Notes: generated by a model from the letters alone, not told the origin. A DNA stretch of 41,497 nt from Phycisphaerae bacterium (GCA_018433925.1 JAHDQI010000309.1:1-41497), one strand, 5' to 3'; numbered from the stretch's first letter, positions 35,790-38,842 are shown. Numbers and translations: made by a program.

Positions 35790-36065
35790 ATGGTAACCAA
35801 AGGCAAAAAAAAAGGTGAATACAGATTTGTTTACAAACCCGCGGAAAAAGTCTCCAAAGTATCCATCGCCGGCAGTTTCAATCAATGGAAACCACAGGCC
35901 ATGCGAAAACAGAAGGGCGGCGAGTTTGCCGTTTCGATGCCTCTCTCGGCCGGGTATTACGAATACAAGTTTATCGCGGACGGAACCTGGGTCAACGATG
36001 CCGATAACGGCGCCTACACCTTTAACCCGTACGGAACCGTAAACTCCGTCTTCCGGGCCGAATAA
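35790..36065 (+). CDS. Free-standing glycogen-binding-like (CBM48/AMPK-beta type) protein
   Basis: A 91-residue protein that is nothing but an early-set immunoglobulin-like domain of the CBM48/isoamylase-N group. After a basic N-terminus (MVTKGKKKGEYRFVYK) come the hallmark VSIAGSFNQWKPQAMRK and YYEYKFIADGTWVNDADN, ending in the NPYGTVNSVF strand. In AMPK-beta and glycogen-branching enzymes this domain binds alpha-glucans through Trp and Lys residues equivalent to W in FNQW and W in GTWVND. There is no enzyme attached and no glycogen gene nearby. AAAGGAG lies upstream of the ATG. A glycogen-associated adaptor or sensor role is an inference. Confidence 0.9.
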   Translation: MVTKGKKKGEYRFVYKPAEKVSKVSIAGSFNQWKPQAMRKQKGGEFAVSMPLSAGYYEYKFIADGTWVNDADNGAYTFNPYGTVNSVFRAE

Positions 36066-36224: not shown

Positions 36225-36252
36225 TTGATTTATATATTTTGTGCTCTATACT
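36225..36252 (+). promoter_or_regulatory. Promoter of the HTH / ABC ATPase operon
   Basis: TTGATT (36225-36230) and TATACT (36247-36252) are separated by 16 nt; a start near 36259 gives a ~47-nt leader with AAAGGAG (36291-36297) 8 nt before the ATG at 36306. Confidence 0.65.
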
Positions 36253-36305
36253 GCGGCCTGACAAGACGCCAATCGGCAGCCAGGCGGCAGAAAGGAGCAT
36301 AGATC

Positions 36306-36800
36306 ATGACAGGCGCCAACAGCAGACCATGGGTTGAGGTCGGCCGGCAGCAATACGAAAAACAGGCCGTCCTTCCCGCCGTGGCCCGGGACAGGGCCGA
36401 CCTGATCTGCCGCCGCCTGTCCTGGCTCGACGAACCGGACCGGCTTCTTCTCGAACTGGTTTATCTGCGGGGCTCTACCTGTCGTCAAATCGCGGGCCTG
36501 CGGGGCCTGCGAACCTCCTCCGTAACACGGCGGGTGCGCAAGCTTACCAACCAGCTAACCCGCCCGGACTATCCGCTCTGTCTGCGGCATCGATCCGAAT
36601 TAACGCCCCTCGAACTGAAGATCGCGCGAGACTGGTTTGCCGCCGGCCTGAGCCGCCGAGAAATCGCTCGCCGCCGCGGCCTGTCCCTCTACCAGGTCGA
36701 TCGCATCCTTCGCCGATTAAAAGCTCTCGTGGCCGCGCACCGGCCGAAACCCGTCGCCTCCATCCCTTTTCCGGCCGCCCCAAAGGAGCCATGTCCATGA
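36306..36800 (+). CDS. Double helix-turn-helix protein (sigma-region-4-like)
   Basis: A 164-residue basic protein with two successive DNA-binding HTH units. HTH1 covers about residues 42-84 (DEPDRLLLELVYLRGSTCRQIAGLRGL then SSVTRRVRKL, in parts), HTH2 about 98-142 (LTPLELKIARDWFAAGLSRREIA then GLSLYQVDRILRRL). Each resembles the region-4 module of sigma-70-like factors, but no region-2 core-binding domain is present, so it is not a full sigma factor. It is probably a transcriptional regulator or DNA-targeting subunit. Its stop overlaps the ATG of the ABC ATPase gene (ATGA), showing translational coupling, so both are likely one functional unit. Confidence 0.8.
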   Translation: MTGANSRPWVEVGRQQYEKQAVLPAVARDRADLICRRLSWLDEPDRLLLELVYLRGSTCRQIAGLRGLRTSSVTRRVRKLTNQLTRPDYPLCLRHRSELTPLELKIARDWFAAGLSRREIARRRGLSLYQVDRILRRLKALVAAHRPKPVASIPFPAAPKEPCP

Positions 36801-37537
36801 ACCAACACACCCCTTCAAAAGAAGCCGCTGCCGATGCAACCTTTTCAAAACGGGCCATGGAAGTCATGTGTTTGTTCGGACTGGACCGGCGGGATCTTCA
36901 CCGGCCGGCCCCGGCGGCCCCCGGCGGCCTGCCCATACGCCCGGGACAGATTGGCTTGATCACCGGCCCCTCCGGGGCGGGCAAAAGCACACTCCTGCGC
37001 CAATTTTACGAGGCCGCCGATGCCCGCCGGCGACTTTGGCTTTCGGATGTCCCGCTGGCAGAAAACGTCCGTGTGATTGACTGCGTTGAAGGGTCCGTTT
37101 CCGAGGCCCTGCGAATTTTATGCAAAACCGGACTGGGCGATGTCTTCGCGATACTCAACCGGCCCGGACGGCTCAGTGAAGGACAGCAATATCGATACCG
37201 CCTGGCCCGGGCCCTGCTGAGCGGAAAACAATGCCTCTTCGCCGATGATTTCGGAGGCTCGCTGGATCCGATCACGGCCGGCACACTGGCTTATCAAATC
37301 CGCCGGATGGTTTGTGAAAATCGGCTGCTCTTTTTCGCCGCCTCGTGCCACTCGGAAGCAGCCGCGGCGCTGCGGCCAGACCTGGTCATCAAAAAAGATC
37401 TGGCCGGCAATACCGAGATCGTTCGTCAAAAAAACCAATCCCGCCGGCAGACCGCAGGCGCAAAAAGTATGCCGCCTGTGAACCGGGCGGTTCACAGGCG
37501 GACATACGCAGGCGAGGGCAAACTTATAAGGTGGTAA
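36797..37537 (+). CDS. Stand-alone soluble ABC-type ATPase (COG2401-like half)
   Basis: A 246-residue ATPase starting at ATG 36797, where AAAGGAG lies 8 nt upstream and the start overlaps the HTH stop; an ATG at 36791 is too close to the ribosome-binding site. Motifs: Walker A GPSGAGKST, ABC signature LSEGQQYRYRLARALL (LSGGQ variant), Walker B CLFADDFGGSLD, and the switch His in ASCHSEAA. There is no membrane-spanning domain or permease gene, so it is not a classical transporter. The region and the GNAT gene downstream resemble the COG2401 proteins, in which an ABC ATPase is fused to an acetyltransferase. Its last ~20 codons run through a long hairpin and look less conserved. It ends 14 bp inside the convergent small gene. 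Confidence 0.9.
   Translation: MNQHTPSKEAAADATFSKRAMEVMCLFGLDRRDLHRPAPAAPGGLPIRPGQIGLITGPSGAGKSTLLRQFYEAADARRRLWLSDVPLAENVRVIDCVEGSVSEALRILCKTGLGDVFAILNRPGRLSEGQQYRYRLARALLSGKQCLFADDFGGSLDPITAGTLAYQIRRMVCENRLLFFAASCHSEAAAALRPDLVIKKDLAGNTEIVRQKNQSRRQTAGAKSMPPVNRAVHRRTYAGEGKLIRW
37467..37507 (+). repeat. Long perfect inverted repeat at the 3' end of the ABC ATPase gene
   Basis: CCGCCTGTGAACC (37472-37484) and GGTTCACAGGCGG (37489-37501) form a perfect 13-bp stem with a 4-nt GGGC loop. GTATG (37467-37471) and CATAC (37503-37507) extend it by 5 bp around one bulged A. There is no T-run, so it is not a classical intrinsic terminator. It may stabilise mRNA ends or be a remnant of a small mobile repeat. 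Confidence 0.8.
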
Positions 37538-37808
37538 GTGATGAGGAGGTTTGGCGAATTCCGGCGTTTGCCTGTTCGTCTTTTAGCTCTTTGACAATCA
37601 TTTCGGCCCATTCCATCTGGGTGGGAAGCATAAAAGAGGGCACATACTGTTTTCCGGCATATCTCGTAACATGATATCGGGCGCACTGATCATGGCCGCC
37701 CAGGCAGTACCGCTCCCGAAACATACTGAACAGTTTGGGCATGTGGATACTCTGGTCAGCGGAAAACAGCTCGCAGTTTTCATAAAAGTCGCAATGCTTC
37801 ATAAACAC
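37524..37808 (-). CDS. Small Cys-rich protein (possible metal or Fe-S cluster binder)
   Basis: A 94-residue protein on the opposite strand between the ABC ATPase and GNAT genes. The GTG start at 37808 is preferred since AAGGA lies 6 nt upstream; ATG 37802 is the alternative. Four cysteines are arranged as MKHCDFYENCELF, then YCLGGHDQCARYHV, followed by a GKQYVPSFMLPTQMEWAEMI tail. The C-x5-C, ~25-residue gap, C-x6-C spacing, the CARY motif and the P-x-Q after it look like a conserved small cysteine-rich domain seen in diverse bacteria, sometimes near signalling proteins. Metal or cluster binding is inferred. It is convergent with the ATPase gene (14-bp overlap). Confidence 0.75.
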   Translation of the reverse strand: MFMKHCDFYENCELFSADQSIHMPKLFSMFRERYCLGGHDQCARYHVTRYAGKQYVPSFMLPTQMEWAEMIVKELKDEQANAGIRQTSSSLTTL

Positions 37809-38038
37809 ACGGCTTCCTTCTTTTTGTTTTCAGGACTTTTCGGTTGGAAATCAAGGGTGCAAGCACAGTCTGACGTTGCCAAATATCAGAAAACTACCTA
37901 AGTAAAAAATACTAAATAGAATATGGAAATACAACTAATTATATATCAGTATATTTACCTATCGGCCAAAAACCTCGGAGGCATTTACCATTTTTTTGTT
38001 TTTAAAGAAAATCCTGAAAAGAAAAGGTCCCATAAAAC
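37809..38038. other. AT-rich spacer before the GNAT gene
   Basis: A 230-nt AT-rich gap holding the upstream regions of the divergent Cys-rich gene (minus) and the GNAT gene (plus). No clear -35/-10 pair and no ORF are seen. The AT content contrasts with the GC-rich HTH and ATPase genes. Confidence 0.4.
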
Positions 38039-38842
38039 ATGAATACTAATAAAACAATAAGCATTTTTGATGATTGTTGTATCAGTCAGGCCTCCGCATC
38101 TGACATCCAAAGTCTGGCACAATACCACTATCGAAAACTCCCGAATCAACCGTATGTCAAGGCCTGGAAAATAGTTAGAAATTCGTTGGAGGACCAAAGT
38201 CCCATCGGTATTATCACCTATTCCATGCCGGTCTTAAACAGCCGCGGACGTCGGCAGGCCGCTGACGGATTCTTCTCCGGAAACGACCAAAAAACCCGAT
38301 TATGCCGCCTTAACAAGCATGTCCGGCGGATCAGCCGGGTTATCATTGACCCGCGATACCGCGGGCTGGGTCTGGCAAGCCGACTGGTGGCCGAAACCAT
38401 GCCAAAGCTGGATGTCGCCATGATCGAAACAACCGCGGTTATGGGGCGTTTGAGCGGCTTTTTTGAGCGGGCAGGCATGAGGCGGTTTGATCTGCCCCCC
38501 CGGCCGCAGGCACTGGCCCTGGCTCGCGGACTGGAGGCCGCCGGCATTGACAGGGATTTATGGATCGACGCCGCGGCCGTCCAGGAACGGATCGTATCCC
38601 TTCCCGCCGAACTTAACTCCTTCATAGAAAAGCACATCCATCAATTTCTTGGCGCTTATGGCCGGCGACGTAATATGCCTGCCGGCACTGAGCGAACCCA
38701 ATTTGCCCTCTGCCGACTCAACGCCCGCCCGGCCTATTTCGCATGGCTCAATCCCAAAAAGAAAATCAAAGGATTGGAACTGCATATCGGAGAGATCAAC
38801 AAGAGAAAAAAAGATTGTAATGAGACGATAAATAATATATAA
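38039..38842 (+). CDS. GNAT-fold protein (Mom/COG2401-like)
   Basis: A 267-residue protein with a GNAT core. Motif A with the acetyl-CoA loop is seen in ISRVIIDPRYRGLGLASRLV (about residues 98-117), followed by MIETTAVMGRLSGFFERAGMRRFD (in parts: TTAVMGRLSGFFERAGM). The N-terminal ~60 residues include PIGIITYSMPVLNSRGRR, and the C-terminal part is basic. The isRVIIDPRYRGLGLA and FFERAGM pattern is the one I associate with acetyltransferase domains fused to ABC ATPases (COG2401) and, more distantly, with the phage Mu Mom DNA-modification enzyme. Here the ATPase is a separate gene upstream. Whether it acetylates a protein or modifies DNA or RNA cannot be told. The promoter of the next gene overlaps its 3' end. 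Confidence 0.85.
   Translation: MNTNKTISIFDDCCISQASASDIQSLAQYHYRKLPNQPYVKAWKIVRNSLEDQSPIGIITYSMPVLNSRGRRQAADGFFSGNDQKTRLCRLNKHVRRISRVIIDPRYRGLGLASRLVAETMPKLDVAMIETTAVMGRLSGFFERAGMRRFDLPPRPQALALARGLEAAGIDRDLWIDAAAVQERIVSLPAELNSFIEKHIHQFLGAYGRRRNMPAGTERTQFALCRLNARPAYFAWLNPKKKIKGLELHIGEINKRKKDCNETINNI

Follow-up and report, generated by a model that had tools for sequence, protein, structure and literature searches.

TmcA and NAT10, which acetylate cytidine in tRNA or rRNA, combine an ATPase with a GNAT domain that acts on the nucleobase; their ATPase is a helicase-type module and not an ATP-binding cassette (ABC) protein. The Mom protein of phage Mu is a GNAT-fold enzyme that modifies DNA adenine and acts without an ABC partner, while proteins of COG2401, such as MK0520, carry an ABC ATPase followed by an acetyltransferase domain. 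Gene transfer agents of the RcGTA type are chromosomal, taxonomically structured, phage-derived operons that bear a terminase. Base modification by an ABC-GNAT pair is already a known proposal for phages, since a passage of PMC7824862, citing Iyer et al. 2013, predicts that a GNAT protein together with an ABC ATPase gives an acyl-modified DNA base. Here we compare these systems with a three-gene cassette, encoding a helix-turn-helix (HTH) protein, a soluble ABC ATPase and a GNAT acyltransferase-like protein, which lies in a 41,497-nucleotide stretch of DNA from a Phycisphaerae bacterium (GCA_018433925.1, JAHDQI010000309.1:1-41497; hereafter the window). Large phages and many planctomycete chromosomes alike carry related sets next to the gene of the DNA-packaging motor, an arrangement suggestive of an ancient phage module that was domesticated and probably modifies DNA. 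With a confidence that stops just short of even, we read the pair as a COG2401-type, ATP-dependent acyltransferase of nucleic acids, most likely of DNA bases, that comes from a domesticated phage packaging operon.

Relatives were collected by a GNAT search of 294 genomes of the phylum and by profile scans of named genomes and of viral contigs. The search gave a GNAT relative in 48 of the 294 genomes, with one match each, and nearly all of the loci fetched from these genomes held an ABC relative in the same short locus. The scans gave 80 loci in named genomes, nearly all of them Planctomycetota, and 53 loci in viral contigs. Neighbour fractions leave out truncated loci, so that every denominator counts testable loci. 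The ABC gene is found 5' of the GNAT gene in 67/68 chromosomal and 46/47 viral loci, and the HTH gene in 60/64 chromosomal and 0/40 viral ones. Whether these homologues are neighbours elsewhere had been raised as a check in a first-pass annotation of the window, and they clearly are. Since relatives keep the same order, and since the ratio of nonsynonymous to synonymous substitution rates (dN/dS) between two sister species (L040 and L042) is 0.19 for GNAT, 0.26 for HTH and 0.36 for ABC, the cassette is more than a chance arrangement.

In some relatives ABC and GNAT form one chain, with ABC first (L055, 474 amino acids; L057, 464 amino acids). The GNAT orthologue of Escherichia phage Cyrano is annotated as 'MK0520 protein, ABC-type ATPase fused to a predicted acetyltransferase domain', and a Klebsiella phage orthologue also bears the MK0520 annotation. 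Because of these fusions and of the MK0520-named phage orthologue, the term 'split COG2401-like', used in the first-pass annotation, is apt: the two proteins are separate genes in the window and are likened to COG2401 by order and annotation, not by a COG2401 profile.

The same fusions and the conserved pairing contradict the view that the ABC protein is an ordinary transporter ATPase adjoining an unrelated GNAT, which can hardly be true. The protein does match PF00005 in Pfam (9.5e-11) and possesses the ABC motifs, with Walker A (GPSGAGKS), Walker B (FADD) and the signature LSEGQ, all three of them noted in the first-pass annotation, as well as a D-loop SLD and an H-loop His, and the NCBIfam entries closest to it are transporter ATPases, none of which comes near its cut-off. 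Its PHROGs matches are instead phage ABC families, phrog_11143 (5.9e-19) and phrog_293 (1.6e-18).

Gene-family clustering of the neighbours exposed a family whose phage member is annotated as large terminase (TerL). PHROGs and Pfam confirmed the TerL of the chromosomal loci (phrog_2, phrog_9, TerL_ATPase and, slightly below the cut-off, Terminase_6C) and identified ParB-like proteins in chromosomal loci, and both identities are backed independently by phage annotation. TerL lies downstream of GNAT in 44/53 chromosomal and 43/44 viral loci, and ParB is present in 37/70 chromosomal loci. The common chromosomal order, present in most Phycisphaerae chromosomes, is HTH-ABC-GNAT-(ParB)-(small gene)-TerL, the small gene before TerL giving weak matches to terminase small subunits in one locus. 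Among 150 genomes of the class, with TerL counted as present at E below about 1e-80, 76 carry both TerL and GNAT, 6 TerL only, 21 GNAT only and 47 neither (Fisher p 5e-16, not corrected for phylogeny), and genomes of the class that have GNAT almost always have one copy. The chromosomal TerL retains its Walker A and B motifs and the acidic residues of the nuclease, and its dN/dS is 0.10. In 44/64 chromosomal loci a CI/LexA-like repressor gene, divergent and about 260 bp upstream, encodes HTH_3 and Peptidase_S24 domains with a GDSMEP and then a Lys motif.

Some neighbour clusters were discarded. The conserved upstream '300-aa gene' (cl7) turned out to be the divergent repressor gene read in antisense, and clusters cl15 and cl32, antisense to TerL and GNAT, were treated as similar artefacts.

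Phages of about 110-120 kb present the order ParB-ParB-ABC-GNAT-TerL-portal-capsid (module phages include SSU5, Cyrano, nickie, hairong and RHEph10; phrog_293, phrog_886). The linear records of SSU5 and Cyrano have the ABC-GNAT pair at their end, and an adjoining TerL is therefore not visible in them. Phage and chromosomal versions have homologous ABC and GNAT genes in the same order, and TerL follows downstream in most chromosomal loci and in almost every viral contig long enough to show it. The chromosomal version, in contrast, has the upstream HTH gene, places ParB, if any, downstream of GNAT, is mostly without a detected portal or capsid and often has the CI/LexA-like repressor. In a GNAT tree, built by a quick method and with long branches flagged, phage and chromosomal groups separate, except for the viral contig L187. 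As the same ABC-GNAT pair adjoins terminase in phages and in chromosomes, the phage link behind the possible domesticated phage function that the first-pass annotation mentioned is strongly supported.

Head genes were searched with four profiles, covering these portal and capsid families and no others: Phage_portal (25/101 genomes with a match), HK97 Phage_capsid (29/101), a phage-clade portal (1/101) and the major head protein of related clusters (2/120). A single family, f97, supplies about half of the genomes with Phage_portal (25) and of those with Phage_capsid (29), and most of its sampled members lack ABC-GNAT. Exceptions that do carry head or portal genes are G297, G305, G011, G008 and G039. 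In G297 and G011 the ABC-GNAT-ParB-terminase set leads directly into portal, scaffold and/or major head genes, and in G305, G008 and G039 the head or portal gene is on a separate contig.

These relatives, in which phage-clade portals, related major head genes or both are present (within the same cluster in G297 and G011), lend some weight to the idea of a cryptic gene transfer agent, in which the operon would be the packaging half, the head and tail genes would lie elsewhere, too divergent to detect, and ABC-GNAT would modify host DNA before packaging. A single-copy, taxonomically structured distribution, CI/LexA-like control and an intact TerL would all suit such an agent, and the chromosomal, terminase-bearing, phage-derived character is shared with the RcGTA type. 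None of the four profiles, however, found a match in the window's own genome (an assembly of 441 contigs) or in the complete genomes of the carriers G287, G127, G341 and G346. Most operon carriers differ from RcGTA-type agents in the same way, as the searched head-gene families were not found in them. We consider a cryptic gene transfer agent fairly improbable.

The family f97 deserves a separate mention. The listed genomes (G296, G304, G312, G319, G324, G334 and others) all have Phage_portal, mostly in one copy, nearly all carry HK97 Phage_capsid, and most are without ABC-GNAT. In G304 and G319 (L244-L246) portal and capsid are at separate places, a head protease follows the portal (L245) and a distant TerL-like match lies elsewhere. 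This gene set looks like a dispersed gene transfer agent. A TerL of another family (phrog_38), split into two frames, was also seen in G011 (L242, 9802-11204).

The GNAT protein of the window matches the phage family phrog_886 at 1.5e-11 (PHROGs), and its Pfam matches are to GNAT families, weak and all below threshold. Its predicted model is confident (pLDDT 85.5) and has the GNAT fold. The top Foldseek matches of this model are TmcA and NAT10, with a poor superposition on TmcA (root-mean-square deviation 13). VIA-align ranks many GNATs about equally (Z 12-13), and Mom is one of these, with a Z of 12.7 over 149 residues. A larger GNAT profile, run against PDB sequences to an E of 10, picked out neither TmcA nor NAT10 nor Mom, an absence that excludes nothing. 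The GNAT-related fold that the first-pass annotation mentioned for Mom is shared by the model, but Mom is only one of many tied GNATs.

Ten residues (H30, Y31, R71, R100, R108, G109, G111, E130, M135 and G146) are invariant across 52 phage and chromosomal GNAT sequences, a pattern consistent with what would be a conserved, active enzyme. Because of the TmcA and NAT10 fold matches and of the phage prediction published in PMC7824862, nucleobase acylation is the leading idea for what this GNAT may do, the substrate being one that we infer. The protein could alternatively acetylate other proteins, such as terminase, RNA polymerase or a ribosomal protein, under regulation by the ABC and HTH proteins. 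Fold ties with RimI, Ard1, NatC and NatF agree with this, as does a passage of PMC7824862 on Rac, a GNAT protein by which a phage acetylates the RNA polymerase of its host. The GNAT of the window has no NCBIfam match at all, and therefore matches no RimI-type family in that collection. It is unusual for protein acetyltransferases to be so consistently paired with or fused to an ABC ATPase, an arrangement that resembles the ATPase-GNAT enzymes of nucleic acids, and we regard protein acetylation as improbable.

An anti-phage or restriction-modification cassette, the former also listed as a possible function in the first-pass annotation, would fit an anatomy that is DNA-modification-like and the weak similarity of the ABC protein to MADS proteins. 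PADLOC, however, returned no system match, with weak P-loop matches for ABC only and none for HTH or GNAT, and no nuclease partner was noticed except TerL. The cassette is moreover single-copy and widespread in the class, unlike a mobile defence island, and a defence role is highly improbable.

In the reading that we prefer, an acyltransferase from a domesticated packaging operon, ABC and GNAT would be the two halves of a COG2401-type ATP-dependent enzyme. Tailed phages with genomes of about 110-120 kb share the pair, which they carry after their ParB-like proteins and before the large terminase. In Planctomycetota the pair would belong to a domesticated, capsid-less packaging operon in which a CI/LexA-like repressor gene faces HTH-ABC-GNAT-(ParB)-(small, partly TerS-like gene)-TerL. 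The HTH protein would bind DNA, regulating or targeting; an ABC dimer with ATP would close on DNA and position the GNAT, which would acylate a base amine with acyl-CoA as the donor (compare Mom on adenine and TmcA on cytidine). Some DNA transaction linked to the terminase may then make use of the acyl mark. In the species of the window, the cassette would have been parted from ParB and TerL, and its ATPase looks weakened. A bolder form, which we find rather doubtful, is an old planctomycete operon, DNA-damage-controlled and capsid-less but with a terminase, whose ABC-driven GNAT acylates DNA bases and whose TerL motor-nuclease processes the marked DNA, as a new kind of gene transfer agent or as a phage packaging motor that the cell has turned to a DNA function of its own.

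Several observations weigh against the acyltransferase and packaging-operon reading. Fold comparison, with its many ties, fails to tell nucleobase acetyltransferases from those of proteins. Stand-alone ABC-GNAT fusions of about 470-520 amino acids (L094-L098), from several families of the class, have no TerL of the two modelled families nearby, and the terminase linkage is therefore not essential. In sister genomes of the window's genus about 30 kb separate TerL from GNAT, both on one strand; in the window no TerL adjoins GNAT, and none was found anywhere in its own assembly, whose fragmentation may hide one. The catalytic position of Walker B is Glu in 36 of 37 aligned family members and Asp in the window ABC only. 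Finally, an in-frame TAG interrupts the ABC gene of a sister, G157, immediately ahead of Walker B (L041 9295-10008, minus strand; L108 5788-6423).

The window version thus differs from the phage module in having neither ParB nor TerL nearby, and no CI/LexA-like repressor was seen upstream of it. The 30 kb that separate TerL and GNAT in the genus consist of mixed-strand, conserved, ordinary chromosomal genes; phage structural genes were looked for in this interval, which holds the conserved chromosomal genes instead. The cassette of the window, which we read as detached from the packaging operon and possibly decaying, may be partly relaxed. Taken further, this would make it a relic that has lost its terminase context and has no current function, a reading compatible with our preferred one for the family as a whole. 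The missing TerL, the Asp unique to the window and the nonsense codon of G157 speak for a relic, as does a divergence from sister species (identity about 44-47% for ABC and 53-55% for GNAT) that exceeds that of conserved neighbouring genes (identity 65-75%). On the other hand, the three reading frames are intact, sister species give the low dN/dS values above, the window GNAT retains every family-invariant residue, and the fragmented assembly may conceal a TerL; a functionless relic is rather unlikely. GNAT is the best preserved of the trio by dN/dS, and the H-loop His is kept in the window ABC and lost in some neighbours. In the genus (L080, 11305-12750 and 13112-14617), TerL lies beside a divergent, very conserved gene with DnaC/DnaA-like AAA+ similarity (phrog_50), which is perhaps dnaA.

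Known systems do not readily explain why much of a bacterial class should keep a terminase, nearly always in single copy, that is linked to an ATPase-acyltransferase pair but lacks detectable capsid genes, and no published description of a capsid-less chromosomal terminase operon was found in the literature searched. The first-pass annotation had missed that the terminase is the main partner, and likewise the ParB proteins, the CI/LexA-like repressor and the signs of decay in the genus; what the comparison adds is a terminase-centred, repressor-controlled, apparently capsid-less chromosomal operon. With it one can ask by experiment which molecules the ABC-GNAT proteins of COG2401 type modify, and whether a cell can employ a phage packaging motor in the absence of a capsid. 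Planctomycetales bacterium ZRK34 (L162), a named organism with a complete genome, has the full operon, and PhiR41_1, a phage of E. coli K-12, carries the ABC-GNAT pair.

The three open reading frames of the window are all open and intact and together span 36306-38842 (Table 1). In the HTH protein, Pfam HTH_24 is above the cut-off at residues 113-139, a sigma-70 region-4 HTH is below threshold at residues 39-78, and the NCBIfam sigma70-ECF superfamily matches slightly below its cut-off (1.1e-10). The coupling of the HTH and ABC genes by an ATGA overlap, claimed from the start, is borne out, with an AAAGGAG about 9 bases upstream of the second ATG of ABC (36797), as read from the sequence.

Table 1 Features of the cassette and its surroundings in the window (positions counted from the first nucleotide of the window).
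Feature	Position	Strand	Remarks
Promoter-like site upstream of HTH gene	36225..36252	+	Weak, 9/12 consensus matches
Double helix-turn-helix protein	36306..36800	+	164 aa; N-terminal sigma-70-region-4-like HTH, C-terminal winged HTH
Soluble ABC ATPase	36791..37537	+	248 aa from 36791; 246 aa from likelier start 36797
ATGA overlap of ABC start and HTH stop	36797..36800	+	Read from sequence
Terminator-like inverted repeat	37472..37501	-	13-bp perfect repeat plus T-run; consensus match only
Small Cys-rich protein gene	37524..37808	-	94 aa; internal ATG at 37802
GNAT acyltransferase-like protein	38039..38842	+	267 aa; relative of phage family phrog_886

The idea of one HTH/ABC/GNAT cassette holds for the intact trio and its conserved order, but an opposite-strand gene splits ABC from GNAT in the window. 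This gene, for a small Cys-rich protein, keeps the same antisense position across the genus, and its product has no match in Pfam, PHROGs or NCBIfam. As the gap of 501 bp from the end of ABC to the start of GNAT holds this conserved gene, ABC and GNAT need not share one transcript here, and HTH-ABC and GNAT may be two transcription units. The inverted repeat sits inside the 3' end of the ABC reading frame and is terminator-like for the small gene. Several copies of the Cys-rich small-protein family surround the GNAT gene in the genus (L040-L042, L107, L108, L117), and one further copy is present in the window's genome (G000, C278:10945-11169). Just upstream of the cassette, at 35790-36065, a small stand-alone glycogen-binding (AMPK1_CBM) protein is encoded, in the same place across the genus.

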